NCBI GenBank assembly: GCA_903858815.1
Contig: CAIOKE010000203.1
Coordinates: 1-32,353, forward strand
Length of the DNA stretch: 32,353 bases
Direction of reading: 5' to 3'
Origin: an uncultured Planctomycetaceae bacterium
GTDB taxonomy: Bacteria; Planctomycetota; Planctomycetia; Planctomycetales; Planctomycetaceae
This document shows positions 1-14,127 of this stretch, piece after piece. Position 1 is the first letter of the stretch, and the number at the start of each line of letters is the position of its first letter. Made by a program: the position numbers and the translations under genes. The notes under the pieces were generated by a model. The model was given only the letters and a program-made list of their open reading frames with translations. It ran no database searches and was not told the DNA's origin.

Positions 1-73
1 CACCCCGGGACCACCGAGCACCAGCTCGGTCCACACCACCACACACCCCGGGACCACCGAGCACCAGCTCGGT
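1..73. repeat. Two tandem 30-bp hairpin-bearing repeats
   Basis: The same 30-bp sequence occurs at 1-30 and 44-73, a period of 43 bp. Each copy contains a perfect inverted repeat, ACCGAGC-ACCA-GCTCGGT (13-30 and 56-73), giving a 7-bp stem and a 4-nt loop. The 13-bp spacer between them is rich in CA. The array may continue left of the window. It lies just downstream of the minus-strand gene that ends at 152, so it could act as a transcription terminator or be a REP-like element. There is no T-run typical of an intrinsic terminator. Confidence 0.8.
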
Positions 74-81
74 ACACTAAC

Positions 82-119
82 CCAACCTCCTGAGGTTCGG
101 CAGGAGCCTCACACTCCCA
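82..119. repeat. Dispersed intergenic repeat, copy A
   Basis: Positions 98-119 match 17987-18008 at 20 of 22 bases (core CGGCAGGAGCCTCAC). The preceding 12 bases, CCAACCTCCTGA at 82-93, recur exactly at 17776-17787. An inverted repeat AACCTC-CT-GAGGTT lies at 84-97. The match to a second non-coding region 17.9 kb away marks this as a member of a dispersed repeat family; its function is unknown. Confidence 0.6.
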
Positions 120-151
120 GGAGCCACTGCGCCTGCACTGACAACGCCCCT

Positions 152-3100
152 CTACGCCGCACGAAATGGACGAGCATTCGCAGCCCACTGGATCCACGCC
201 GTGACCGTCGACAGATCAGGCTCACCAGCCGTCTTCAACAGCTTCTGACCCTCGGCGGATTCCGACAGCGGACGGACACTCAACAACACCTGCTCCGGAC
301 CACGTTCCGACAGGGCCTCCGGAGTCAGAATGCCACAAGCCACCAGAATCTGCGAATCCACTGCTCGCAACTCCGGTATCTGACACATCAGACGCGCCTG
401 CGCCTGCCACTGGCGCACAATCGCTGCCGTAATCCGCCGCGAATTCAGCTTCTCAGACACACGCTCCGGAGTCATGCTGAGGAATTCTTCCACCGTCCGC
501 AACCCCGCCGCCTGTAACAGCTCGGCCGTTCGCGGGCCAATCGAAGGAGCACTCGCAACACTGCTGGTGCGACTCAGGAAAAATCGCATGCCCCCGACTC
601 GCTCTGCCACCTGCGCACCACCCTCGGACTCCGGCAGCTCCACACGATGCTCCGCTGCCAGCTGCTGCCTTCGAGCTGTTCGCTTCGCCCGACGTGTCTC
701 GGTTGCGGCATCCACCTCAACCTTCCGCCGCCGCTTCTTCGCGACAGGCTTCACTGCAGACTTCGCACCCGCTTCACTCACCACCGCAGGCTCTCCCCGG
801 GTCGCTGCAGGTCGCACGACGGCCGCGCGCACCGCAGACTTCACACTCGTCCGCGCACCAAAACGGGAACGAGTCTGAAAGACATCCTCCAAAGAACGCA
901 GAAACTGACCAAAACGCGCCCAATTCAAAGCCTGCTGCCGATCAATCAGGCGACCCGCTCGACGAAATCGAGCCCCCGACTCAGATCGCTGGAAACGCGT
1001 CACTCGCTCATACACCGTCTCTGGTCGCAGTCGCGAAAGCTCCTCAGCAGTATGAATCCCCGCCGCAAACAACAACGCCGCATCGCCTCGCCGCAGCAAT
1101 GGCACACGCGCTGCCAGCTCAGCCTGACCCCACAATGCCTGCAACCGCTCAACCGGTACCACAAAGCCCTTCAGTCGTGCCAGTTCCTCCAGCTGCGGAA
1201 TCGTACGCGTCAGCAGATCTCGCACCGTTAATACACCCGCAGTCCGCAAAGCCTCCAGCTCGCCAAGACTGATCCCGGCAAGATCCTCTATCCCATGATC
1301 CGCCTCCAGATAAAACAACCAGTTCGAAGCATGAGGATCATGCGACTCTGCTGACTGTGGCAGCAACACCAGCTCCGAATCAGCCACCGCAGCAGACAAC
1401 GGCTCCTCTGCAACCGACTCCGCTTCCTCGCCCACATGCAGTTGCAGCAATGGTGCGGCCACCGCTGCCAACGGTTCCTCCACGGAAATGACCGGCGATT
1501 CCGGCACCACACTCGACTCAGGCTCAGACTCAGGCTCAGGCGGCAATTGCTCCACAACCATCGCTGGGAAGGGTCGGACCTCCAGCCAGCGTCCCTGCTG
1601 ATCCGGCAGATCACAGCTTTCCGCCAGAACCAGTATCTGCTGGCCAGCCGCTGCAAATGACTCAAGCACCGCTGCCGTCCCCGCAGACCACGATTCCCCG
1701 GCATGCAGATGCACACCATCCAGAATCAACGGCACATTCGCACCTCGCAGCTGCAGCAGAGATAGTCGCAGAACCAGACCAACCAGATCCTGTACGGCTG
1801 CGTCCAGCTCATGGAGTGAAACGGCCGCAGGTTCACCACCAGGTGACACCAGCAACCCACCATCCACTGCCCAGCTCAGATCACGAACTTCACCACCCGT
1901 CGCTCGCCGCAACGCCGCACCAGCTGTCTCCAGCAGACTGTATACCGGACGCTCTGACAACGCTGCCAGCAGCTCACACACTGTCTCCTCAGCCTGATCC
2001 AGCTGACGCCTCTGCTCCTCCAGTTGCGTTGTCTCCGCCTCCAGCTCCGCAATCGTCGCTCGCAGCTGATCCAGCGTCTCCAGAGTCAGTGCCGGCTGCA
2101 GATCACCCCGCAGACACTCCAGACTCTGCTCCACAGTCGCCAGCTCGGCCTGCAGCTGCTGCAGTTCGCTGCTGCAGCAATCCCGCTCACTCTCGGCAGT
2201 CGACATTGCCGCACGCAGCTCCGTATCGGCCAGCAGACGCAAAGACTCGTCCGCCGGTACCGCCTCGCCGGCAGACTCATGCAGCCTTCTCAACTCCGCC
2301 TGCAGTAGCTCCGTAACAGCCAGCCCCTGCTCCAGACACTGCTGCATCAGGGCAGCACGCTGACTCAGCAGATTGTCGGGCGACACCTCAGTCGCAGACT
2401 GCAGCAACTGCAGCGCTGCACCCGCCAGCTGACCGGATTCCTGACGACGACAGACCGCCAGTTCCCGAGCCATCAGCGCCGTGATCGCCTTCCACTGCCC
2501 CAGCGACTCCGCAGTCTCCTCAGCCGTAGCGGCAGTGTCACGTCGAATACGCAGACGCTGCACCGACTCAAGCTGACGTACCCGCTCCTGCAAACCCGCC
2601 AACCGCAACTCGAAAGTCGCCAGCCGAGGCAACAGCACAGCACGCTGCTGCTCCAGTGCACGAATCCGCGCTGCCAGTGATTCCGCCGGTTTCCGCAACG
2701 CCGCGATGCGACCCTGCAGCTCGCCCTGCTGACGACGCAGTTCCGATATGCGATGAATCAAACCACCAGATAAGCCATTCCCGTCCCGCTCAGTACGAAT
2801 CCGCTCCAGACCCTCTTCCGCCTGACGCCGCTCCGACTCCAGAGTCAATCGCTGGTCACTCTCACGACACAGCTTCAGCAACAACTCAAAACGACCCGAC
2901 TCCGCCAGACCCGGACTGCAGATCTCACGAAATACGGTTTCATCAACCCAGCTCGGCAGAACCCCCGCAACAGCTGAATCCTGCAGCGACAACAGCTCAC
3001 CAGACTGCAGCTCAATCTCGCCCGCAGCAAAGGCTCCAGACTGACTGCCATGCCAGAAACCTGAGTGCGATTCTGCCGATCGCGGCCGGAATACCTGCCG

Positions 3101-3232
3101 CAGAAACGCCACAAAGTCCCGCCGCTCCGCCGCTGAAACAGAATGCAGCACCGTCGCTCCACGCGACAGACACTCCACAACTCGACCGGAAAGCCCACCG
3201 TACTCTTGAATTCTCACTGCCTGCAGATACAT
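152..3232 (-). CDS. YhaN/Rad50-like coiled-coil protein with degenerate ATPase motifs and two DUF4332 regions
   Basis: A 1026-residue protein. The N-terminus (YLQAVRIQEYGGL) and the spacing to AFLRQVF (42-48) fit the ATPase head of YhaN/SbcC-type proteins. Where a Walker A GxxxxGKST should stand it reads SVSAAERRD (31-39), so the P-loop glycine, lysine and serine are gone. A Gln/Glu/Arg/Leu-rich coiled coil spans about 120-430. The signature region (VSLHELD, about 467) lacks S-x-G, and Walker B reads VPLILDG (500-506) without the second acid. An acidic Pro/Glu/Ser linker follows, then a DUF4332-like helix-hairpin-helix region (about 640-760), a very basic linker (KKRRRKVEV and following, about 830-860) and a second DUF4332-like region (about 885-1020). 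It starts 40 bp after the YhaO-like gene; AAGGA lies 10 nt before the ATG. Inferred: a structural or DNA-binding partner rather than an active ATPase. DUF4332 itself has no settled function. Confidence 0.75.
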   Translation of the reverse strand: MYLQAVRIQEYGGLSGRVVECLSRGATVLHSVSAAERRDFVAFLRQVFRPRSAESHSGFWHGSQSGAFAAGEIELQSGELLSLQDSAVAGVLPSWVDETVFREICSPGLAESGRFELLLKLCRESDQRLTLESERRQAEEGLERIRTERDGNGLSGGLIHRISELRRQQGELQGRIAALRKPAESLAARIRALEQQRAVLLPRLATFELRLAGLQERVRQLESVQRLRIRRDTAATAEETAESLGQWKAITALMARELAVCRRQESGQLAGAALQLLQSATEVSPDNLLSQRAALMQQCLEQGLAVTELLQAELRRLHESAGEAVPADESLRLLADTELRAAMSTAESERDCCSSELQQLQAELATVEQSLECLRGDLQPALTLETLDQLRATIAELEAETTQLEEQRRQLDQAEETVCELLAALSERPVYSLLETAGAALRRATGGEVRDLSWAVDGGLLVSPGGEPAAVSLHELDAAVQDLVGLVLRLSLLQLRGANVPLILDGVHLHAGESWSAGTAAVLESFAAAGQQILVLAESCDLPDQQGRWLEVRPFPAMVVEQLPPEPESEPESSVVPESPVISVEEPLAAVAAPLLQLHVGEEAESVAEEPLSAAVADSELVLLPQSAESHDPHASNWLFYLEADHGIEDLAGISLGELEALRTAGVLTVRDLLTRTIPQLEELARLKGFVVPVERLQALWGQAELAARVPLLRRGDAALLFAAGIHTAEELSRLRPETVYERVTRFQRSESGARFRRAGRLIDRQQALNWARFGQFLRSLEDVFQTRSRFGARTSVKSAVRAAVVRPAATRGEPAVVSEAGAKSAVKPVAKKRRRKVEVDAATETRRAKRTARRQQLAAEHRVELPESEGGAQVAERVGGMRFFLSRTSSVASAPSIGPRTAELLQAAGLRTVEEFLSMTPERVSEKLNSRRITAAIVRQWQAQARLMCQIPELRAVDSQILVACGILTPEALSERGPEQVLLSVRPLSESAEGQKLLKTAGEPDLSTVTAWIQWAANARPFRAA

Positions 3233-3272
3233 CGCTGAAGATCCTTCTTCGCTGACTCGCTCTTTCGAATAC

Positions 3273-4292
3273 TCAGGCCGCCGGCCAGAGCACCCTCAGT
3301 GTTTCCGCTACCTCACTGCCAGTCCCCAGCGGCAGACCCTGCATCGGATGACAGGCAGATTCCACCGACTGTCGCCGCAAATGACGTCGCTGAACAGCCT
3401 CTGAAAACTCCCGACTCAGGACGCTCACACCAGCCGACAAAGACAACTCACTGCGATCCGAAAATCGAATTCGCGCTGGCCACGCACCCGCATGACCAGC
3501 ACACAGACCAGCACGCAGATCACGCAGTAACTCCACCTCACGCAGACGCGAACCACTCAGACTGTCCGCACACAGACGACCGTCAATCTCCCACTCCACC
3601 ACAGTCGTTCCACGCAGACCCGCAAGACCTCGACTCGCTGACAGCAGGAGTTGCAGTAACTGCTCAGGAGTCGTCCCGTCAGGACAATTCAGCTGCTCGC
3701 GCACAAACCGCAGCACCTGCACCGCACTGTGCCACACGGCAACTGCCCCCTGCTGCAGATCCGCCTCACACACCAGACAGCCACCACCCGATTCCAGCGC
3801 CGACAGCGGCTGCAGCCAGCCACATTCCGCCGCACCCTCAACCCCGCTCAGACCCGCTTCAGTCGCCTCGAAACTGCAGACACCCGCCGGAACACGCCCC
3901 GCAGCCACCTGCAAACGCATCCCCTCAGCTGCTGAGCTCACCAGTAATCGCTCACCACGACGCATCACCAACGCGTCCGAAAGACCCAGTTCCACCGCCT
4001 CTGACGCATCTGCACCCGCCAGCACCAGCCGCACACCAGCCTGCCGCAGACGCTCATACTGACACGCCAGCCAGTTCACCGCAGGCCGCAAATCTTCAGC
4101 TCGCTCTGTCAACCGGCCCGCCACATACACAAACTGACAGCCACCAGCCAACGCCGCATCAAAGAACTGAACCACCGACTGCCGAACAGCGGAGGAAGCG
4201 ATTCGTCTGAGCCACTCCGGGCTGTCAGTCAGTCCCATAATCGGACTGCCCAGACGCAACGCCCCGGTATGCACAAACCGCACCAACGACAT
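3273..4292 (-). CDS. YhaO/SbcD-like metallophosphoesterase homologue lacking its active-site residues
   Basis: About 339 residues from the preferred ATG at 4292. The N-terminus follows the YhaO (DNA repair exonuclease, SbcD/Mre11-like) pattern closely: RFVHTGALRLGSP, then a long helix, FVYVAGRL, YERLRQAGVRLVLAG. Every metal-binding motif is altered: the usual DLH-x-D becomes A11-L-R13-L-G15, GD becomes G59-R60, and GNHD becomes G93-A-D-A96. A later stretch, GGGCLVCEADLQQG, resembles the strand after the family's GHxH motif, but no GHxH is seen. The protein is shorter than typical YhaO (about 400 residues). The next gene encodes the YhaN-like partner, also degenerate, as in yhaO-yhaN operons. 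Inferred: a pseudo-nuclease scaffold. An ATG at 4310 is possible, but GGGAGG sits within those first codons, 6 nt before 4292. Confidence 0.75.
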   Translation of the reverse strand: MSLVRFVHTGALRLGSPIMGLTDSPEWLRRIASSAVRQSVVQFFDAALAGGCQFVYVAGRLTERAEDLRPAVNWLACQYERLRQAGVRLVLAGADASEAVELGLSDALVMRRGERLLVSSAAEGMRLQVAAGRVPAGVCSFEATEAGLSGVEGAAECGWLQPLSALESGGGCLVCEADLQQGAVAVWHSAVQVLRFVREQLNCPDGTTPEQLLQLLLSASRGLAGLRGTTVVEWEIDGRLCADSLSGSRLREVELLRDLRAGLCAGHAGAWPARIRFSDRSELSLSAGVSVLSREFSEAVQRRHLRRQSVESACHPMQGLPLGTGSEVAETLRVLWPAA

Positions 4293-4298
4293 TCCAGG

Positions 4299-4304
4299 CC
4301 TCCC
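4299..4304 (-). promoter_or_regulatory. Ribosome binding site deciding the YhaO-like start
   Basis: GGGAGG on the minus strand lies 6 nt upstream of the ATG at 4292 and inside the codons that would follow the alternative ATG at 4310. It therefore supports the shorter protein. Confidence 0.65.
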
Positions 4305-4455
4305 TGCCACGGTACTTGCTGAAACTCAACCCTGCAGACGCCTTTCTGCAGCTGAATCCTGAAATCTAAGCAATTCCGCGCAACGGCTCCAGACCAAATC
4401 AGCAGAAACTGCCGGAGCCGGAATCCACTGACCAATCCACGCACACCGCCAGCCC

Positions 4456-5913
4456 TCAACTGACCGGCAGGAGCTCTGAAATCGGATCCCCAAATGGCAG
4501 AATCGGCATCGGACGGCCACTGTAGTCGGGAAACGATTGAGTCCAGTCAATGCCCAGATGACGATACACCGTCGCCCACAGGTCATTCGGAGTCAACGGA
4601 CGCTCCTTCGGCTCCTCACCCTTCGAATTCGTACTGCCAATCACCTGACCCGTTCGCATCCCACCACCAGCCACCAGCATCGACATCGCCTGCGGCCAGT
4701 GATCACGACCCGGTTGCATCACCCCCGTCTGACTGCCCAGCGTCGAATTGATTCGCGGAGTCCGACCAAATTCCCCTGTCACCACCAGCAGCACTCGTTT
4801 GTCCAGACCGCGAGCATACAGGTCCTCAACCAACGCCGTCACCGCCTGGTCGTAAATCGGAAACCGCACCAACGCATCATCGAACAGATGACAGTTGACC
4901 GCATGCGAATCCCAGTTGTAGGTGCCGTTCTTCAACCACGGCACTCCCGACTGATACGGATTCTCCATCACCATCGTCACAAAACTGCAGCCCGCTTCCA
5001 CCAGACGACGAGCCAGCAATGCCCGCTGCCCCCAGCAATGACGCCCATAACGATCCCGCAGCTCCGCCGGCTCCTGAGTCAGATCAAAGGCCGTGCGAGC
5101 CGCATCACTGGTCAGCATCGAAACCGCCTGACGATTGAACTGATCCATCGCCTGCATCACACCACTCTCATCGATCCCCCGCCGCAGCCGATCAAAACCC
5201 TGCAACAGCTGCACCCGATCCTCCAGACGACTGGATGCCACCTTGTCCACCGACAGATTCTTAACCGTGAATCCCGCCTCTCCAGGGTCACCCGGCACGT
5301 TGAATGGAACATACGAAGGCCCCAGCCACGCCGCGCCAAAACTGTAAACGTCCACGCCCGCTCGGCCCGGTTCTGTTCCCGAAATGTAATTCGGCAGACC
5401 CGTCACCACTCGCTCACGACACCGCGACACAATCGAACCGACCGCCGGAGCATCATTCACGAAACCCGTCGGCGTCGCCGGTAAACGGCCCGTCAGAAAT
5501 CGCTTGTGACCTCCACCATGGTCAGCAAACTCATGCGCCACAGAACGAATAATGTTGTACCGGTCCGCACACTTCGCATGCAAAGGCAACAACTCGCAGA
5601 CGTCCAGTCCGGACACGTTGGTCGCAATCGGAGAAAACAAACCACGATACTCCGCCGGAGCCTCCGGCTTCATATCGTACATCTCCATATGCGGAGGACC
5701 CCCAGGCAGCCAGATAAAAATCACCGCCGTCTCAGCAGCACCCGCACCAACCCCGGATCCCGCCGCCGACTGCTCAGCCCGTAACTTCAAAACATCCCCC
5801 AGACCCAGCATCCCCAATCCCAGCGATCCCGCCTCCAGAATACTACGCCTGGAAACCGGTCCCGGACACATCGAAGCCGTGATGCAAGACGCCGAACTGC
5901 GAGAATGACGCAT
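4456..5913 (-). CDS. DUF1501 family protein with twin-arginine signal
   Basis: About 485 residues from the ATG at 5913. The N-terminus carries a twin-arginine-like signal (SRRSILEAG at 21-29, then a Gly/Leu-rich hydrophobic stretch), so export as a folded protein is likely. The body shows DUF1501 features: IFIWLPGGPPHMEMYDMKP, SVAHEFADHGGGHKRFLTG, WDSHAVNCHLFDD and LLVVTGEFGRTPRIN, a fold related to sulfatases and alkaline phosphatases. Planctomycetes encode many of these, usually beside DUF1549/DUF1553 cytochrome-like genes; substrates are unknown. Here the only such partner lies about 18 kb away at 23741. An upstream in-frame ATG at 5973 would add 20 residues before the signal and is disfavoured. 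A 163-bp gap separates this gene from the YhaO-like gene, so co-transcription is uncertain. Confidence 0.92.
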   Translation of the reverse strand: MRHSRSSASCITASMCPGPVSRRSILEAGSLGLGMLGLGDVLKLRAEQSAAGSGVGAGAAETAVIFIWLPGGPPHMEMYDMKPEAPAEYRGLFSPIATNVSGLDVCELLPLHAKCADRYNIIRSVAHEFADHGGGHKRFLTGRLPATPTGFVNDAPAVGSIVSRCRERVVTGLPNYISGTEPGRAGVDVYSFGAAWLGPSYVPFNVPGDPGEAGFTVKNLSVDKVASSRLEDRVQLLQGFDRLRRGIDESGVMQAMDQFNRQAVSMLTSDAARTAFDLTQEPAELRDRYGRHCWGQRALLARRLVEAGCSFVTMVMENPYQSGVPWLKNGTYNWDSHAVNCHLFDDALVRFPIYDQAVTALVEDLYARGLDKRVLLVVTGEFGRTPRINSTLGSQTGVMQPGRDHWPQAMSMLVAGGGMRTGQVIGSTNSKGEEPKERPLTPNDLWATVYRHLGIDWTQSFPDYSGRPMPILPFGDPISELLPVS

Positions 5914-5920
5914 AACAACG

Positions 5921-5927
5921 CTCCCTT
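5921..5927 (-). promoter_or_regulatory. Ribosome binding site of the DUF1501 gene
   Basis: AAGGGAG on the minus strand ends 7 nt before the ATG at 5913. This spacing selects the start that places the twin-arginine motif near the N-terminus. Confidence 0.65.
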
Positions 5928-6330
5928 CTGTCACCCCATCTTCCAGCCAGCACCACGGATTGTCAACGCTCAATCAAGCAACCAATCCAGCCCCCACCTC
6001 AACTCTTTCGACACCCAAATCCCCCCGGATGCGGACACTTCACCCCAAACCGCGCAAAAAAAAAACGTCCTCCGGCGATTCCGTCAGACGTGCGGGGAGT
6101 GAACTATGGGAAGCTGGGGAGGTCGATCAGGCTGGGTCACCAAATCGACTATTGGCTTATGAGTTCAGCACGTTTGACGAACGTCGGAGGACGCTCAATG
6201 CTTCCCAACTGCAGCATATCCTGTGCCAAACAGCAAAAATCAAAAACATCACCACCGCACCCACACGATCCTGCTGGTTAGCGCGATTTTTCACCCATTC
6301 ACTGGCTTTTTGCGTTCTGTCTGCTAGTGT

Positions 6331-6441
6331 TTCGGCGCCGACATCCAACTCTTCCTGTTCGACGATCGGCGCCGAAACCAGTTTTTCACGTTGATTTTCG
6401 GCGCCGAACTGGAACCCAACCCACAGGCTTTACGGCGCCGA
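6331..6441. promoter_or_regulatory. Four phased palindromic sites (TCGGCGCCGA), putative operator
   Basis: The 10-bp palindrome TCGGCGCCGA occurs at 6332-6341, 6366-6375 and 6398-6407, and once with a single change (ACGGCGCCGA) at 6432-6441. Flanking T and A bases extend most copies toward TTTCGGCGCCGAAA. Centre-to-centre distances are 34, 32 and 34 bp, close to three helical turns, so all sites face roughly the same side of the DNA. The last copy ends 22 bp before the ATG of the sigma-54 activator gene. This suggests cooperative binding of a dimeric regulator, possibly the activator's own Fis-type helix-turn-helix domain. The identity of the regulator is inferred, not shown. Confidence 0.75.
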
Positions 6442-6463
6442 AGGCGTGAGATAAACCGCACAC

Positions 6464-9400
6464 ATGAGCGTTATCAGTGGACGATCGCGAATCGCTGGCG
6501 GATCCGCAAACGACGGCCGGTGGCTTGTTGCCGCCTTCGTCGGCTGCACCGTCTTCTACTGCGTCGTCACACTCTGGTACGTTGCCACCTTCCCCGATGC
6601 CGGACTTCGCTGCCTGCTCCCCGAATCCAGCCGCTCCGGCCCTGGCATCGAAATCCAGGAATACCTCGACGTCTCATGGGTCACCACAGACCCTGCGCCC
6701 AAACCCGGCGATCGACTGCTGAAACTGAACGGACAACCCATCCACACCTTTCTTGATTTTGTGCGAGTTCTCCAGGCTCTCCGATTTGCCCAAATTCCAC
6801 CCGGTGGCCAACTGGCCCCCGGCTCCGATCCCGTCGAACTCAAAGTCCCTCCGCTCGTCGAAGTCTACTCCCGCGACCCAGGCTCACCAGCAGTCCGCCT
6901 CGTGGCCGTCGAATACCAGCGCAGTGACGCCACCGCCGGCCCGGACGGACGACGACTGACCCAGATTGCGTTCCTCCCCATCCGACCCGTCACCACACTC
7001 GAAATCGGACTCACCATCATCTGGTTCGGCTGCCAGCTCACCATTCTGATGTTTGCCGTCACCTCGTGGTGGTACCGCCCCTACGACCGAGCAGCCCGCG
7101 CTTTCTGCCTGATGTCGACCGCCGCCATGGGCGCCTTCGTCCCCGGATTTCACTGGTGGATCCTGCCCGGCAACCCCCTGCTCAACATCCCCTTCATCAT
7201 CTGCGCATCCATGCTGCCCGCTCTGGTGCTGAATTTCTTCCTCACCTTCCCCCGCGAATTTGAGGGCCTGCGCACATGGCGTCGCGGACAACAGCTGGCC
7301 GTCTACGGCCCAGCCACCGTCATCAGCTTCCTCATCGTTCTCACCTACTGGTCCTGCTGGGTCCTGAATGGATCCCTGTCCAGCGGCCCCCTCACGGCTT
7401 TTCAGAAACTGGCCATCGTCGCACAGATCATCTGCTATGGCGGTGGCTCTGATCGCATCCCCGTAGAAACATCCCTGCAACTGCTTGAACACCTCCGCAT
7501 CCTCGCACAGATCGGCATGGGCATCGGCTCCATCTATTTCGCCGTCACCGTCGCACGCCTCTCCTTCAGCCTGTTCCACAGCGACACGCCACGCGAACGC
7601 CGGCAGGTTGTCGCCATCCTCGGCGCAGCACTGCTGGCCACACTGCCGATGGGCTACACCGTCTTTCTCGCGTTCTTTCGACCGGTTGATTTTGCCCTTG
7701 GGCGAGCTCAGATTCCGATGTTCGTCGCCAGCATGCTGTTTATGGCCGCCTACTCCTACGGCATGCTTCGCGACCGTCTCATGCTCGCGGAAGATGTTGA
7801 TGACCGCAACCGCCGCTACGTCGGCATGTCACTGCTCGTCTCCGCCGGCTTCGCTGTCCTGATGGCCGCCGGCGGTATGCAGGCCCAGTCATGGAACCTG
7901 CCCCTCAGCACTTCCACCACCCAGCAGATCGCACTCTTCCTGATCCTGCTGCTGGCGGCAGGTCTCAGCCTCTGGGTTCGCGATCAGCTGCAATCTGTCG
8001 TCGATCGCCGCTTCTTCAGCGAAAAATATCAGCTCGATCGCGCCATGCAGCAACTCAATCGCTCGGCCGCCTACCTCGCTGACCCCTCTGCCATGGCCGA
8101 AATGACACTCAAAACCTGCGAAGATGTTACCGGCACGTCATGGTCCGCCATCTACGTTCGCGATGGACAGGGGATCCTTCGACAGATTGGCTCGCGCGGC
8201 ACCTCAGTCGCGCCGGAAAAACTACCCGCCGAACTGCTGCAGGGCGAATCCTCACCCTCCGCCATTATCCCCCGCCTGCCCTCCGCAAATCGCGAATCCA
8301 TGGAACCCGTGCAGCGACTGCTGCACGACCTGCGCGCTGAACTGCTGTGCCGTCTCGAAGTCGCAGATGGACTGCACGGCGTCATCCTGCTCGGACGTCG
8401 CCGCGATGGACTCGCCTGGTCCGCCGAAGACTTCGCCTTCCTGCAGGCGATGGCCCAGATGAGCGTTCTGGCACTGCACAGCTCACGAGCAAACCAGACC
8501 ATGGCACGACTCAACGCCGAACTCAAAACCAAAATGGAAAGCATCTCCGAGCAGCAGCGGCAACTCACAGCCCTCCGCGCGGAACTCACCATCCTGCAGC
8601 AGGAAGCCGGACAGAACCCCGTACAGCAATCCGATGTGGAACTCGATCGCGAGGGTGTTCGCGGCAGCAGCCCCGCACTCCTCGCTGTACTCTCTCAGGT
8701 CCGCAAGGTCGCTCGCAGTGACTCCACTGTCCTCATCCGCGGCGAAAGCGGTACAGGAAAGGAACTGCTGGCGCGAGTCATTCATCGCAACAGCGAACGC
8801 GCCGCTGCCAGCCTGATCTGCGTCAACTGCGCCGCACTCTCCTCCTCCCTCCTCGAAAGCGAACTGTTCGGGCACGTCCGCGGAGCTTTCACCGGAGCTC
8901 ACGCAGATAAACCCGGACGCTTCCTCGCCGCACACGGAGGTACCCTGTTCCTTGACGAAATCGGAGACATCTCCCCGGAAACTCAGGTCAAATTGCTGCG
9001 AGTCCTGCAGGAACGACGCTTTGAACCCGTCGGCAGCGATCGCACCATCGATGTGGATGTCCGCGTCGTCGCAGCCACCAATCGCAACCTTGAAGAACTG
9101 ATCGCCAAAGGCGAATTCCGCGAAGACCTGTTCTATCGACTGAATGTCGTCTCACTCACACTGCCCGCACTCCGCGATCGACACGAAGACCTCGCCGAAC
9201 TCGTCTTCTACTTCCTCAGTCGCGCCGCTCAGAAAACTCGCAAACAAATTCGACAGATCGAACCCGCAGCCCTCGAGGCCCTGCAGGCTCACCCGTGGCC
9301 CGGTAATATCCGCGAACTCGAAAATGTCATCGAACGAGCCGTCGTGCTGGCCGACAGCGACGTCGTCACATTCGCCGATCTCCCCACGGAACTGCGCACC

Positions 9401-9658
9401 GGCAGCGTCGTCGTTCGACCCGTCAAAGCCTCCGTCCGCACAACCAGTACGACTGCCAGTACCACCACCAGCACCACAAACACCTTCACCGCAGTCGCCC
9501 GCAGAGTTGCCCCGGCAGCTGTCGATCAGCAGCTTGAAGAACGCGCCATTCGCGAAGCACTCAGGGCCGCCGGAGGAAATAAAGCGGTGGCCGCTCGCAG
9601 CCTGAATCTGCCCCGCAGCACCTTCTTCAGCAAATGCCGACGCTACGGCATCAGCTGA
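6464..9658 (+). CDS. Membrane-anchored sigma-54-dependent transcriptional activator (PDZ-like, multi-TM, GAF, AAA+, Fis HTH)
   Basis: A 1064-residue protein. A membrane segment lies at about 22-46, then a PDZ-like segment ([15 protein letters not shown], about 80-95), then about eight more hydrophobic segments between 175 and 510. A GAF-like sensor region spans about 530-680 and a coiled coil about 680-725. The AAA+ domain is complete: Walker A GESGTGKE near 759, the sigma-54-contacting GAFTGA near 806, Walker [12 protein letters not shown], the arginine-rich DLFYRLNVV region, and [14 protein letters not shown] Ser/Thr-rich linker leads to a Fis-type helix-turn-helix at about 1026-1064. There is no receiver domain, so it is likely a one-component regulator sensing a membrane or periplasmic signal. 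Its 3' end overlaps murF tail-to-tail by 16 bp. The four palindromes upstream are candidate autoregulatory sites. Confidence 0.93.
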
Positions 9659-11088
9659 TCTGCCGCACCAGCACCAGCACGCAACAGCCAGTCAACCGTC
9701 TCCTCCAGACGCAGCCGACGCGATCCCTTCACACACACCAGATCACCGGACCGCAGCACACACCCTAAGACCCCCTGCAACTCGGCATTGTCCGACACCG
9801 CGTGCAGCTGACCCCGCAAAAATCCGGCAGCTGCAGCAGCCTCCACACACTCCACCGCAAATTCACCACAAAAAACAGCCACATCCACTGCAGAATCCAC
9901 CAGAGCTGCCGCCACCTCACGATGCAGACGCCGTCCCTCCGACCCCAGCTCCAGCATATCACCCAGTACCAGAATCCGACGCCCACCAGACCAGTCGCCA
10001 AGTGCCCGCAGGCAAGCCAGAGCACTCGCCGGGCTGCAGTTGTAAGTCTCGTCCAGTATTCGCCACGAGCCAGCCGTTAACAGTCGCCCTCGACCACGAT
10101 CCGGACGAAACCGCTGTAATCCAGCGGCGATCTGTCGAGCTGACAAACCGGCCTCCCGACCCACACTCACCGCCGCCGCTGCACACAACAGCAACTGCTG
10201 ACCACCCTCATACTCAAACTCGTCCGCCCCACTGCAGAAACGAATCCGCCCACCCGCCACACCACGCAGCTCACACCGCCCGGATCCCTCCGCCTGACTG
10301 CCAAAATACACCACCCGCGCACTGGTCGCTCGCGACATTGCACACACTTCCGCCTGATCAGCATTCAGAAAAACACAGCCACTGCCAGGGATCGCTTCAA
10401 CCAGCTCCTGCTTGGTCGCCTGCACCGCTGACAGGCTGCCAAATGACTCCAGATGACAGGCTGAAACTCGAGTCACCACTCCCCACTCCGGACATGCCAG
10501 CCCGCACAAAAATCGAATGTCACCCATACGCCCCGCACCCAGCTCCAGCACAGCTGCACCATGCGACGGACCAAGCTCCAGCAACGTCAGTGGCAGTCCA
10601 ATCTCATTGTTATAATTCGCCGGACTCTGCAGCACTGACCACTGCTCACCAAGTACCGCATGAATCATCTGGCGAGTCGTCGTTTTACCCACACTTCCAG
10701 TCACCCCCACACACAACGCCGCCGACTGCTGCCGATTCCAGCTGGCCAGACGCTGCAGCGCCACCAGGGAATCCCGCACCACGATCACATCAGGCCCGCA
10801 CACCCCAAAGCCACCGCCCGCACACTCAACATCACGCGGCAATTCATCCGTCAATACTGCTGTCGCTCCACCTGCCGCAGCTGCCGATACAAACTGCACA
10901 CCATGCCGCCGACGCCCCCGCAACGCAACAAACAGACTCCCCGGCTCCACCCGACCGGAGTCCGTCACGACTCGCTCAATCCGGCCAGCACCCAACCCCG
11001 GCACATCGCTCGCAGATGTCCCGCCAAACCAGACTCGCAGCTGCCCCTGCACCCGCTCTGACGCTTCTCTGACAGTACAGGCATACAT
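9643..11088 (-). CDS. murF: UDP-N-acetylmuramoyl-tripeptide--D-alanyl-D-alanine ligase
   Basis: A 481-residue Mur ligase. It adds D-Ala-D-Ala to the UDP-MurNAc-tripeptide in the cytoplasm, the last cytoplasmic step of peptidoglycan precursor assembly. Visible motifs are the substrate-binding segment [16 protein letters not shown] (43-58), the ATP loop GSVGKTTT (131-138), the MurF-typical [16 protein letters not shown], the central-domain [13 protein letters not shown], the C-terminal [12 protein letters not shown] and LGDMLELG. Length is normal. It follows murE by 26 bp on the same strand. GGAG lies 9 nt before the ATG. The stop overlaps the convergent activator gene. Confidence 0.96.
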
Positions 11089-11114
11089 CCCGGTACTCCG
11101 TCGCCAGACTGACC

Positions 11115-12575
11115 CTAACCCGCCGAAAGTTCCCGTAACAACCGCGCCGTCACTCGCCGATCATCAAAGGCAATCTGACGCTCACCAATCCACTGCGTCT
11201 GCTCGTGACCCCGGCCCAGAATCAACACCACATCACCCGCCGTTGCCGATTTCAGAGCCGCTCGAATTGCCGATTCCCGATCCACAATCCGCTGCACCGC
11301 CAGCCCCGCCGGAAACCCCGCACAGATCGCTTCAATGATCGCTGCAGGGGATTCACTGCGAGGATTATCCGAAGTCACAAAGACCTCGTCCGCTCCGGAC
11401 GCCGCTGCCCCCATCAGTGGCCGCTTGTCCCGATCCCGATCACCACCCGCACCAAAAACCACCAGCACACGACCTCGACCAGCCACTCGCGCTGTCTCGA
11501 TCGCCCGCTCAATCCCATCCGGCGTGTGCGCGTAGTCCACAAAGACCGTAAACCCCGACGCACCCACGATCCGCTCAAATCGGCCCGGTACCGCTACACC
11601 CTGCTCCAGACCCTGACGAATCTGCGCGACACTGAATCCCAGTAACTCAGCCAGACCCGCAGCAGCCAGCACGTTCAAGGCATTATGCCGGCCAGGCAAA
11701 GTCGTCCGCACAGACAACTCAGACCCCTGCAGACGCAAACTCAACTGCTGACCCTCCAGACCGGCCGATTCAATTCGTACTGATAATGGCCACTGCGGAT
11801 CAAAACCAAAACCCAGCACCGGAACGCCACACTGCTGCACCGCAGCACGCAGCCGCGGCTCATCAAATCCCGCCAGCAACACCGCTCCCGGCTGCAACAA
11901 CTCCGCAATCTGCAGCTTCGCCCCCAGATAATTCTCAAATGTCCCGTGATAGTCCAGATGATCGTGAGTCACATTGGTGATCGCCGCTGCCGCCAGTCGC
12001 AGCGCCGAACACCGCTGCTGCTTCAGAGCATGACTGCTGATCTCCATCACACAGTCCGATGCTCCCACCTGACGCATCTGACGCAACAGTTGAGCCAGCA
12101 TGGGAGCATCCGGGGTCGTCAGACCGGCCGGACGAGTCTGCTGGCCGTCATGATACTCCAGAGTCCCAATCAACCCCGTACGCACACCCGCTGCTCGCAG
12201 AATTCCCCGCAATAACCACGCCGTCGTCGACTTGCCGTTCGTACCCGTCAATCCACAACACCGCAGATCACGCTCAGGAAAACCCTCCTGAGCCATCGCC
12301 AGCCATGACCAGACCTGTCGAGTCGATCGGACGATGGCCTGAGGGACACGCACCTGAGGCAGAACCTGCTCCACCACCAGCGCAGCAGCACCAGCCTCGA
12401 CTGCCGCAGACGCCCACTGATGACCGTCCGCACGATGACCCCGCAACGCCACAAAGACATCGCCACGACGAATCAATCGGCTGTCACAGACAAACTGCCG
12501 ACCCTCGATGTCACCACAGTCCAGAAATCCCACCGGACACGGACAATCACGAATACTGACCGGCACACCACCCAT
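11115..12575 (-). CDS. murE: UDP-N-acetylmuramoyl-L-alanyl-D-glutamate--2,6-diaminopimelate ligase
   Basis: A 486-residue Mur ligase that adds the third stem-peptide residue. Motifs are DSRLIRRGDVFVALRG (31-46), the ATP loop GTNGKSTT (111-118), LTTPDAPML, the carbamylated-lysine region, MEISSHAL, TNVTHDHLDYHGTFENY, VDYAHTPDG, and TSDNPRSE. The DNPR motif is the usual marker for meso-diaminopimelate rather than lysine as substrate. It begins 6 bp after the bioB stop and is followed by murF, so the three are probably one transcript. The ribosome binding site within the end of bioB is weak, which fits translational coupling. Confidence 0.96.
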   Translation of the reverse strand: MGGVPVSIRDCPCPVGFLDCGDIEGRQFVCDSRLIRRGDVFVALRGHRADGHQWASAAVEAGAAALVVEQVLPQVRVPQAIVRSTRQVWSWLAMAQEGFPERDLRCCGLTGTNGKSTTAWLLRGILRAAGVRTGLIGTLEYHDGQQTRPAGLTTPDAPMLAQLLRQMRQVGASDCVMEISSHALKQQRCSALRLAAAAITNVTHDHLDYHGTFENYLGAKLQIAELLQPGAVLLAGFDEPRLRAAVQQCGVPVLGFGFDPQWPLSVRIESAGLEGQQLSLRLQGSELSVRTTLPGRHNALNVLAAAGLAELLGFSVAQIRQGLEQGVAVPGRFERIVGASGFTVFVDYAHTPDGIERAIETARVAGRGRVLVVFGAGGDRDRDKRPLMGAAASGADEVFVTSDNPRSESPAAIIEAICAGFPAGLAVQRIVDRESAIRAALKSATAGDVVLILGRGHEQTQWIGERQIAFDDRRVTARLLRELSAG

Positions 12576-12581
12576 GACAAA

Positions 12582-13694
12582 TCAACCACACCCACCACTG
12601 CTGCAACTGCCGGAAACACCCGCACCACACGACACCTGATGCGGGACCTTCCAAAGCTCCAGCAGCTTCGACGACTCATAGTCACCAGCCGTGATCCGGA
12701 AACCCAGATCCGAAATCATCCGGAAATCCTCTTCCGCCTTCTGCCCCGGAGTCGTCAGGTAGTCACTCACAAACATCGAATTCGCAGGATACAAAGCCAA
12801 CGCCTGCATCGAACGCAGATTCACTTCCCGGCCACCCGCCACTCGCAACTCAGCCGCAGGATTCGTCAGACGAAACATCGCCAGAACCTTCAGACAGTAA
12901 CGAGGATCCAGCTCGTGCTGAGACTGCAATGGAGTCCCGTCAATGGCATGCAGAAAATTCACCGGGATCGATTCCACATTCAACTCGCCCAGCTTCAACG
13001 CCACATCCACCACATCACCGTTCTGCTCGCCCATCCCCACAATCATCCCCGCACATAACTCCAGACCCGCATCACGACAGATACTCAGTGTCTTCAGACG
13101 GTCCGCAAACGTATGAGTCGTACAGATCTCCGGATGAAAACGCTCGCTCGTATTCAGATTGTGATTCACCCGGTCCACACCAGCAGCCTTCAGCTTCAAT
13201 GCCTGCTCCGGCTCAAGCAATCCCAGACAACAACAGATGTGCAGACCATACTGGTCCTTGATCTGACGCACCACGCCTGCCACATGATCCACCTCCCGGT
13301 TCGTCGGACCACGACCACTGGCCACGATACAATATGTCCGCGAATTGCTTTCAGCGGCCTTGCGAGCTCCATCCAGAAGACGCTCAGCATTCAACATCGC
13401 ATAACGCTCAATCGGTGCCTCCGAAATCTTCGACTGCGAACAGTACGAACAGTCCTCCGGACACAAACCACTCTTCGCGTTCTTCAGATAATACAGCTGC
13501 ACAGTGTTGCTGAACCAGTGGCGACGAACCGCATAGGCAGCATCCAGAATCGACAGCAACTGCTCGTCTGGTGCCTCCAGAATGCTGATCGCCTCGGCTC
13601 GACTCAGAACGCCACCCTCAAGGACACGACGAGCAAACTCACTCCAGTCCTGCTGCACAACAGTTGGTTCGGCTAACGACATACGGCTACCCAT
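12582..13694 (-). CDS. bioB: Biotin synthase (radical SAM)
   Basis: A 370-residue protein that inserts sulfur into dethiobiotin. The radical-SAM cluster motif is C78-PED-C82-SY-C85. Other family features are QLYYLKNAKSGLCPEDC, cysteines for the second iron-sulfur cluster (RTYCIVASGRG, HICCCLGLL, ELCAGMIVGMGE), the conserved LRVAGGRE arginine, and the C-terminal AGDYESSKLLELW region. The C-terminus ends in a Cys/Gly/Ser-rich tail (SCGAGVSGSCSSGGCG) beyond the usual core. It heads a bioB-murE-murF cluster with a 6-bp gap to murE. No other biotin genes are nearby. An alternative start four codons in (13682) is possible. Confidence 0.96.
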   Translation of the reverse strand: MGSRMSLAEPTVVQQDWSEFARRVLEGGVLSRAEAISILEAPDEQLLSILDAAYAVRRHWFSNTVQLYYLKNAKSGLCPEDCSYCSQSKISEAPIERYAMLNAERLLDGARKAAESNSRTYCIVASGRGPTNREVDHVAGVVRQIKDQYGLHICCCLGLLEPEQALKLKAAGVDRVNHNLNTSERFHPEICTTHTFADRLKTLSICRDAGLELCAGMIVGMGEQNGDVVDVALKLGELNVESIPVNFLHAIDGTPLQSQHELDPRYCLKVLAMFRLTNPAAELRVAGGREVNLRSMQALALYPANSMFVSDYLTTPGQKAEEDFRMISDLGFRITAGDYESSKLLELWKVPHQVSCGAGVSGSCSSGGCG

Positions 13695-13909
13695 GACCCC
13701 AATTCAACGGCAAGAACTTCCAGACAGCAGGCAAACAGCCCACAAACACAGAATTCCGTAGTGTATCCGGTTCAAAGACAAAATGCATGGCCACACCACA
13801 CACACACCAGACCCGGAACTTCAGAAACCCCCAAAACAGCCCCCCCAAAAAAACGCGACTACAGGATCCCCTTGTCTTTATTTGCCACCGCCGCCCGTGT
13901 TCGCCTGAT

Positions 13910-13972
13910 CGGCCCCATCGGTCCCATAAGTCCCATAAGCCCCATCAGGCCCATAGGTCCCACAAGACCCAT
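13910..13972. repeat. Seven tandem copies of a 9-bp unit (nnGnCCCAT)
   Basis: Seven consecutive 9-bp units fit the pattern [CA][GA]GnCCCA[TC]: CGGCCCCAT, CGGTCCCAT, AAGTCCCAT, AAGCCCCAT, CAGGCCCAT, AGGTCCCAC, AAGACCCAT. CCCA is invariant. The 9-bp period keeps frame, so translation gives a Gly/Pro/Ile pattern resembling collagen. However, the surrounding frames have no start signal or domain, so it reads as a non-coding minisatellite. Confidence 0.85.
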
Positions 13973-14127
13973 TCCCGCCCCCACACACACCCGAGAATCG
14001 AAAAACACACACGCCCAACGCCATTTCAATTCGACCTGCCTTGCCCACTAAGCCAACTTCCGGGATGATTCAGTCACCCGGACCCATACACCAAAAAACA
14101 TCTGAACACCGTTGCCACTGGCAACAA

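Follow-up and report, generated by a model that had tools for sequence, protein, structure and literature searches.

The window analyzed here, a whole contig of 32,353 nucleotides from an uncultured Planctomycetaceae bacterium (CAIOKE010000203.1), carries near its start a pair of genes related to YhaO and YhaN in which both partners have lost catalytic residues. All features of this pair lie on the minus strand. The upstream gene (3273..4310, GTG start) encodes pseudo-YhaO, a protein of 345 amino acids to which homology and an AlphaFold2 model assign the Mre11/SbcD fold without the nuclease residues. The downstream gene (152..3232) encodes pseudo-YhaN, which has 1026 amino acids and combines a head resembling those of Rad50 and structural maintenance of chromosomes (SMC) proteins with a coiled coil and two DUF4332 blocks. 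The coiled coil spans about residues 136-425 (1958..2827) and appears as long helices in the model. The tail consists of the first DUF4332 block (residues 637-790; 863..1324), a basic linker with a net charge of +11 (residues 791-878; 599..862) and the second DUF4332 block (residues 879-1026; 155..598), which contains the helix-hairpin-helix (HhH) hairpin IGPRTA (residues 898-903; nt 524-541). Both frames are intact and 40 nt apart, with the nuclease-type subunit first, and the same gene order and strand are found in the readable relatives. Between head and tail, we also observed an acidic linker (residues 546-630; 1343-1597). Over residues 546-636, its net charge is -6 to -17 in copies whose heads lack the Walker A lysine, hereafter called dead, and +4 to -8 in the other copies computed.

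The initial annotation had recognized the two long, intact frames as a YhaO-like and a YhaN-like gene, and profile comparisons agree with it, as do the coordinates. A family profile of 23 upstream sequences aligned over 328 columns with six canonical YhaO proteins from planctomycetes (hhalign, 99.4%, E-value 1.2e-21); its match to the E. coli SbcD chains in the PDB was weak (E-value 0.0025). In a Foldseek search with the upstream model (pLDDT 84, pTM 0.81), Mre11/SbcD structures made up 46 of the 48 matches at E-values of 0.001 or below, the remaining two being LpxH, and the best match was 7yzo_A (E-value 4.1e-6, TM-score 0.45, 13% identity). Since the Pfam and NCBIfam models recognized none of the 23 members, the family is probably annotated as hypothetical; a scan of the window's upstream protein alone returned no Pfam family and one sub-threshold NCBIfam match.

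The downstream family profile aligned with four YhaN proteins from the coiled coil through the end of the C-terminal head lobe (hhalign, 99.3%, E-value 2.8e-20) and matched Rad50 (3qku) with an E-value of 1.2e-9. Its model (pLDDT 77, pTM 0.39) resembles the heads of SMC proteins, Rad50 and Lamassu, with a best E-value of 4.4e-7. Predicted singly, as the initial annotation had proposed, the two proteins show the expected folds rather than unrelated ones. In the window's downstream protein, the Pfam matches above cut-off (DUF4332, E-value 1.3e-29; TfoX_C; HHH_5) are confined to the DUF4332/HhH tail. The DUF4332 match (PF14229) scores 103 bits against a gathering score of 23.2, covers two stretches and recurs in 26 of the 27 aligned downstream members. 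No C-x-x-C zinc hook was present in this protein or in the three canonical YhaN proteins examined. The profile and fold homology of both proteins rules out chance similarity or a misread frame.

The nuclease motifs, which read ADIHLDS, AGDLYD, GNHD and GHVH in canonical YhaO, have GALRLGS, AGRLTE and AGAD as their counterparts in the window, the last motif having none. By comparison with canonical copies, the former D-x-H site is now A17-L18-R19 (4254..4262), the former G-D site is G65-R66 (4113..4118) and the former GNHD site lies within LAGADAS (residues 97-103; 4002..4022). This state is shared by the family: the aspartate and histidine of D-x-H and the aspartate of GD are absent from all 34 readable upstream copies (of 35; motifs I and II could not be read in G067, at a contig end), an arginine replaces the D-x-H histidine in 32 of these 34, and GNHD is missing from every copy in which that site was read.

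In the downstream protein, the intact YhaN-type motifs GPNGxGKST, LSRGTRDQ and LILDDV are represented by SVSAAERRD, LDAAVQDL and LILDGV. The former Walker A (residues 31-39; 3116..3142) carries K37R and T39D, and the former ABC signature (residues 476-484; 1781..1807) carries S477D and G479A. In Walker B (PLILDG, residues 501-506; 1715..1732), the first aspartate, D505, is kept and the second acid is gone. The initial annotation was therefore right that D-x-H, GD, GNHD, Walker A and the signature are degraded, and overstated the decay of Walker B, of which only half is lost in the window copy. Of the 33 readable heads (those of G015 and G069 could not be read), 24 retain the Walker A lysine and nine, all of one clade, have lost it: G000, which is the genome of the window, G007, G010, G003, G016, G008, G002, G013 and G009. 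The remaining eight dead copies have N or R in place of D505. In a tree of the pair, this clade has an ultrafast bootstrap support of 100 (G016 is absent there, its upstream row being missing); in a MurE+MnmA tree, its support is weak (69).

Retained activity through unusual residues, in the heads or in the phosphoesterase fold, is barely credible: both folds are kept in the models, while the metal-ligand and Walker A lysine columns are lost or variable.

Because the nuclease motifs are gone from all 34 readable copies in six genera and the Walker A lysine from 9 of 33 heads in a single clade, the motifs indicate that nuclease residues were lost first and ATPase residues later. The paired decay of both active sites proposed in the initial annotation is not supported in that form, as the two losses are separated in time. 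Six copies keep the P-loop with a damaged signature: G004 (LSHES), G005 (LSQDA), G006 (LSRSS) and G017 (LTHGV), all of the window's genus, and G142 (LSLTT) and G143 (LSQQT), of another genus. G015 has the signature ISQES, its P-loop being unread. ATPase erosion, judged from these sequences, has therefore begun more than once. In a third genus, loci L241 (1525-4722) and L243 (1549-4800) have lost the signature glycine (LSLTT and LSQQT) and kept an intact P-loop, which we read as a separate early step of ATPase erosion. All pseudo-YhaO families stand apart from the canonical ones in the pair tree; because the branches are long and one key node has a support of 85, we do not claim a single origin of the nuclease loss.

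Related states were observed more widely. Three distant relatives outside these counts (G031, G028 and G021) lack the nuclease motifs and keep the P-loop. In another family of the class, YhaO-like genes at L086 (9605-10825), L087 (7688-8908) and L088 (8480-9751) lie beside an intact YhaN; they keep D-x-H, have GD in one of three and have lost GNHD and GHxH, possibly an earlier stage of nuclease loss. Also in another family of the class, a YhaN-DUF4332 relative at L085 (8532-12116) keeps GTGKT without the signature or Walker B, perhaps an independent loss of the ATPase; no match to the upstream family was found in that locus.

The window's genome itself holds a second pair at L156 (7026-12035, G000 C119), where a YhaO-like frame with AANLRLDVP at the D-x-H site lies beside a YhaN homologue. 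It shares with the window pair the damaged nuclease-type gene and differs in its intact ATPase motifs (GPNEAGKTT, LSGGTREQL, LIMDD) and in having no DUF4332; in other genera, too, relatives pair an intact ATPase with nuclease motifs that are damaged. The genome also encodes an intact SbcD and SbcC (ADWHLGQ, GNHD, GPTGSGKST, LSGGE). Because this SbcCD and the YhaN at L156 are intact, the motif loss is not genome-wide. Membership of the window pair in SbcCD was ruled out by a negligible hhalign match to the genome's own motif-intact SbcD (1.5%, E-value 0.035, single-sequence target).

Next, we consider how widely the pair occurs. Among 59 related genomes, the upstream protein was matched in 24 and the downstream protein in 33, each including all 18 of the genus, several of the other downstream matches covering the DUF4332 part only. 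Across 170 genomes of the family, the upstream profile matched 130, mostly weakly and to other YhaO-like proteins; its strong matches (E-value 1.1e-28 or better) fall in 35, from six genera (18, 8, 4, 3, 1 and 1). All 26 named loci come from planctomycete records, one of which bears the title Fuerstiella. Two others, L184 and L196, are titled Candidatus Kuenenia stuttgartiensis; they carry the pair and group inside the genus, and their titles look mislabelled. A single-contig genome of 8.9 Mb (G071) carries the ATPase-intact form of the pair. The initial annotation had allowed that close relatives with intact motifs would reduce the pair to a single decaying locus. Congeners with an intact ATPase do exist; the dead state is common to nine species, which rules out a single decaying locus. 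Assembly error was ruled out by eight separately named records that, in addition to the window's genome, have dead-clade copies (L174, L175, L176, L177, L183, L187, L190 and L199).

We then compared substitution rates, taking dN/dS (the ratio of nonsynonymous to synonymous substitution) by the NG86 (Nei-Gojobori) method. It was 0.11-0.27 for the upstream gene (six pairs); for the downstream gene, four dead pairs gave 0.11-0.18 and three others 0.16-0.19, and the MurE control gave 0.07-0.16 (five pairs). Both genes are under purifying selection, which supports the view of the initial annotation that the two have been retained together as a non-catalytic relative of YhaO/YhaN. Rates were expressed as distance to G022 over species distance and are given for dead, intermediate and intact copies in turn (eight of the nine dead genomes, without G016, and seven for some regions; three of four intermediates; four intact). 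The C-terminal head lobe gave 2.79, 1.32 and 0.65, so that dead copies evolve about 4.3 times as fast as intact ones, and the N-terminal lobe gave 3.23, 1.70 and 1.58. The coiled coil (2.92, 1.83 and 1.72) and the upstream protein (2.63, 2.24 and 2.00) stand beside the first DUF4332 block (1.40, 0.79 and 0.57), the slowest region of the dead clade against G022. For the second block, measured against G001 instead, the values were 1.10, 0.60 and 1.46. Because their lobe rates lie far above those of the intact group, the heads of the dead clade are strongly relaxed; its first DUF4332 block has also sped up relative to intact relatives, yet it is still the region that evolves slowest. Among dead copies, 64 of 158 and 52 of 146 columns are invariant in the two DUF4332 blocks, against 10 of 125 and 16 of 118 in the head lobes, which makes these blocks the best-conserved part.

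These rates bear on the idea that the pair is a relaxed remnant whose function is fading in the dead clade, purifying selection merely keeping the frame and tail structurally sound for a minor role. Nearly all regions are indeed faster there, upstream dN/dS reaches 0.27, and only 8% and 14% of the head-lobe columns are invariant. We nevertheless consider it improbable, given that nine species share the state with both frames open wherever complete, that dN/dS stays well below 1, and that DUF4332 is strongly constrained and S477D is fixed.

Within the relaxed heads, a comparison of nine dead with 12 intact copies identified 6 of 243 columns that are conserved in the intact group and conserved as a different residue in the dead one (thresholds 75% and 87%). 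Two of them are T39D (eight of nine dead copies; G009 has R) and S477D (nine of nine). Lys37, in the dead copies, drifts to R, S, E or G. In ABC-type heads, the hydroxyls of the Walker A threonine and the signature serine contact the phosphates of ATP. The T39D/S477D pattern looks unlike free decay and suggests exclusion of ATP; the fixed aspartates may hold the heads apart, which we prefer, or imitate a phosphate. Taken further, the pair could have changed stepwise into a chemistry-free DNA clamp, in which aspartates replaced ATP gating and HhH tails hold DNA permanently without a motor or nuclease cycle, sister species representing the intermediates. This scenario is possible and we hold it tentatively.

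Several features of the tail point to nucleic acid. The basic linker is positive in all 29 copies computed, the IGPRTA hairpin is present in the eight dead copies whose tail sequence was available (8/8), and HHH_5 scores above its cut-off in the window's downstream protein; the HHH_5 match and the hairpin suggest that the hairpin may bind DNA. Alternatively, tail and pseudo-heads could form a protein-protein adaptor that binds and regulates other proteins, such as the second YhaO/YhaN-like pair or a DNA-repair factor, with DNA not being the ligand. In keeping with this, the tail is not restricted to the pair, since a similar one, ending in KAA, is carried by an unrelated 666-residue protein with a different N-terminal part (L095, 8410-10410). 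Dead Mre11-fold subunits elsewhere act as structural partners, and both proteins of the pair have conserved C-termini. The downstream proteins end in -AA in 31 of 31 complete family members and the upstream ones in -A in nearly all (window 155-160 and 3276-3281), endings reminiscent of a C-terminal degron or of a conserved site for a partner. The HhH matches and the basic linker speak for nucleic acid instead, and the pair has no conserved neighbour, so we judge an adaptor rather unlikely. A wider conserved operon was ruled out in the same comparison of flanks: gene clusters were common to at most 5 of the 22 loci compared, and within sub-clades only.

A module of the Lamassu/SMC kind, defending against phages or plasmids, would account for the resemblance of the downstream model to Lamassu LmuB heads. 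An ATPase-intact relative matches the PADLOC models mad3 (E-value 1.4e-14) and LmuB (1.5e-13), and L174 matches LmuB weakly (9.6e-4). However, the window's downstream protein does not match LmuB at an E-value of 0.01, and none of the PADLOC models matches the upstream proteins. The flanks, which were clustered only and not annotated, yielded no defence genes. Presence in all 18 genomes of the genus and a pair tree near the species tree are also unlike mobile defence genes, which makes this explanation highly improbable.

Our model is that the pair is an ATP-independent DNA-binding tether in which the DUF4332 tail is what selection maintains, a reading to which we give a probability of roughly 0.55 from the sequences and models. 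A YhaO/YhaN-like complex would have lost its nuclease chemistry long ago and, in one clade of nine species, ATP binding afterwards. The pseudo-Mre11 subunit would be the link between two coiled-coil arms, while the heads, with aspartates fixed at two phosphate-contacting positions, would no longer be engaged by ATP. Pseudo-nuclease and coiled coils would then act as a passive frame, offering HhH modules to DNA. The selected activity would lie in the C-terminal tail, where two DUF4332 HhH blocks joined by the basic linker probably contact DNA. Together, the evidence suggests that the retained pair is now a passive scaffold that holds DNA. We infer continued binding between the two proteins, DNA binding by the tail and separation of the heads; the main doubts are whether the ligand is DNA or protein and whether the partners still interact.

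Several observations weigh against this model. The TM-score of the upstream model is modest (0.45). For the upstream gene, dN/dS is raised in two of three dead pairs (0.25 and 0.27, against 0.11-0.15 in the three non-dead pairs), and in G000/G007 it climbs to 0.43 over the downstream protein's first 100 residues; because of these raised values, part of the pair is relaxed. The first DUF4332 block, too, evolves more quickly in dead copies than in intact ones (1.40 vs 0.57). The aspartates may be ancestral substitutions kept by inertia, as they occur in one clade only, and every dead copy comes from a fragmented assembly. To our knowledge, DUF4332 has no known function, and the one paper on it found in the open-licence PubMed Central (PMC) literature gives no more than its name.

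Elsewhere in the window, the contig end (1-77) holds two copies of a 34-nt repeat whose hairpin core is ACCGAGC-ACCA-GCTCGGT. Within this repeat, a stretch of 24 bases recurs exactly at 192 places in the genome (113 forward, 79 reverse), against none for a reversed-pattern control; the copies often lie in spaced clusters and close to contig ends, in the manner of a dispersed palindrome of the REP (repetitive extragenic palindromic) kind. Positions 1-14000 show a strong strand asymmetry (GC skew -0.17 to -0.34), which is mostly weaker at 14-22 kb.

The window pair shares with canonical planctomycete YhaO/YhaN (copies such as G029 C119 and G022 C62) the gene order, the profile homology of both proteins and the head lobes around a coiled coil. 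Unlike it, these canonical pairs retain D-x-H, GD, GNHD, GHxH, Walker A, signature and Walker B, and the three canonical YhaN proteins scanned have no DUF4332. With SbcCD and Mre11-Rad50, it shares the overall fold of both subunits; it lacks their catalytic residues and the C-x-x-C hook, and has the added DUF4332 tail. The regulatory B-subunits of eukaryotic replicative DNA polymerases keep an Mre11-like phosphoesterase fold as a non-catalytic subunit; their partner is a polymerase, whereas that of pseudo-YhaO is an SMC-like ATPase. One study compares those subunits with DP1 and Mre11 (PMC4996933). Inactivated archaeal B-family DNA polymerases are a conserved, long-kept family of inactivated DNA enzymes (PMC2527604), with a fold and partner unrelated to those of the window pair. 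Dead Mre11-fold subunits and inactivated DNA enzymes are thus already known. Among the matches listed in the open-licence PMC literature, we found no description of a YhaO/YhaN pair that has lost both activities and has intermediates in sister species, an absence that remains unproven.

We infer that the pair may have a chromosome-structural role, in line with the suggestion of the initial annotation. The usual picture of Mre11/Rad50 and SMC complexes is one of machines driven by ATP. A homologue that is kept vertically and has neither activity, beside relatives that keep the ATP motifs and lack the nuclease, is a natural experiment that parts the structural from the catalytic roles of such complexes, and sister species preserve the intermediates of the loss. 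It also places DUF4332, a domain of unknown function, in a setting where its role can be tested.

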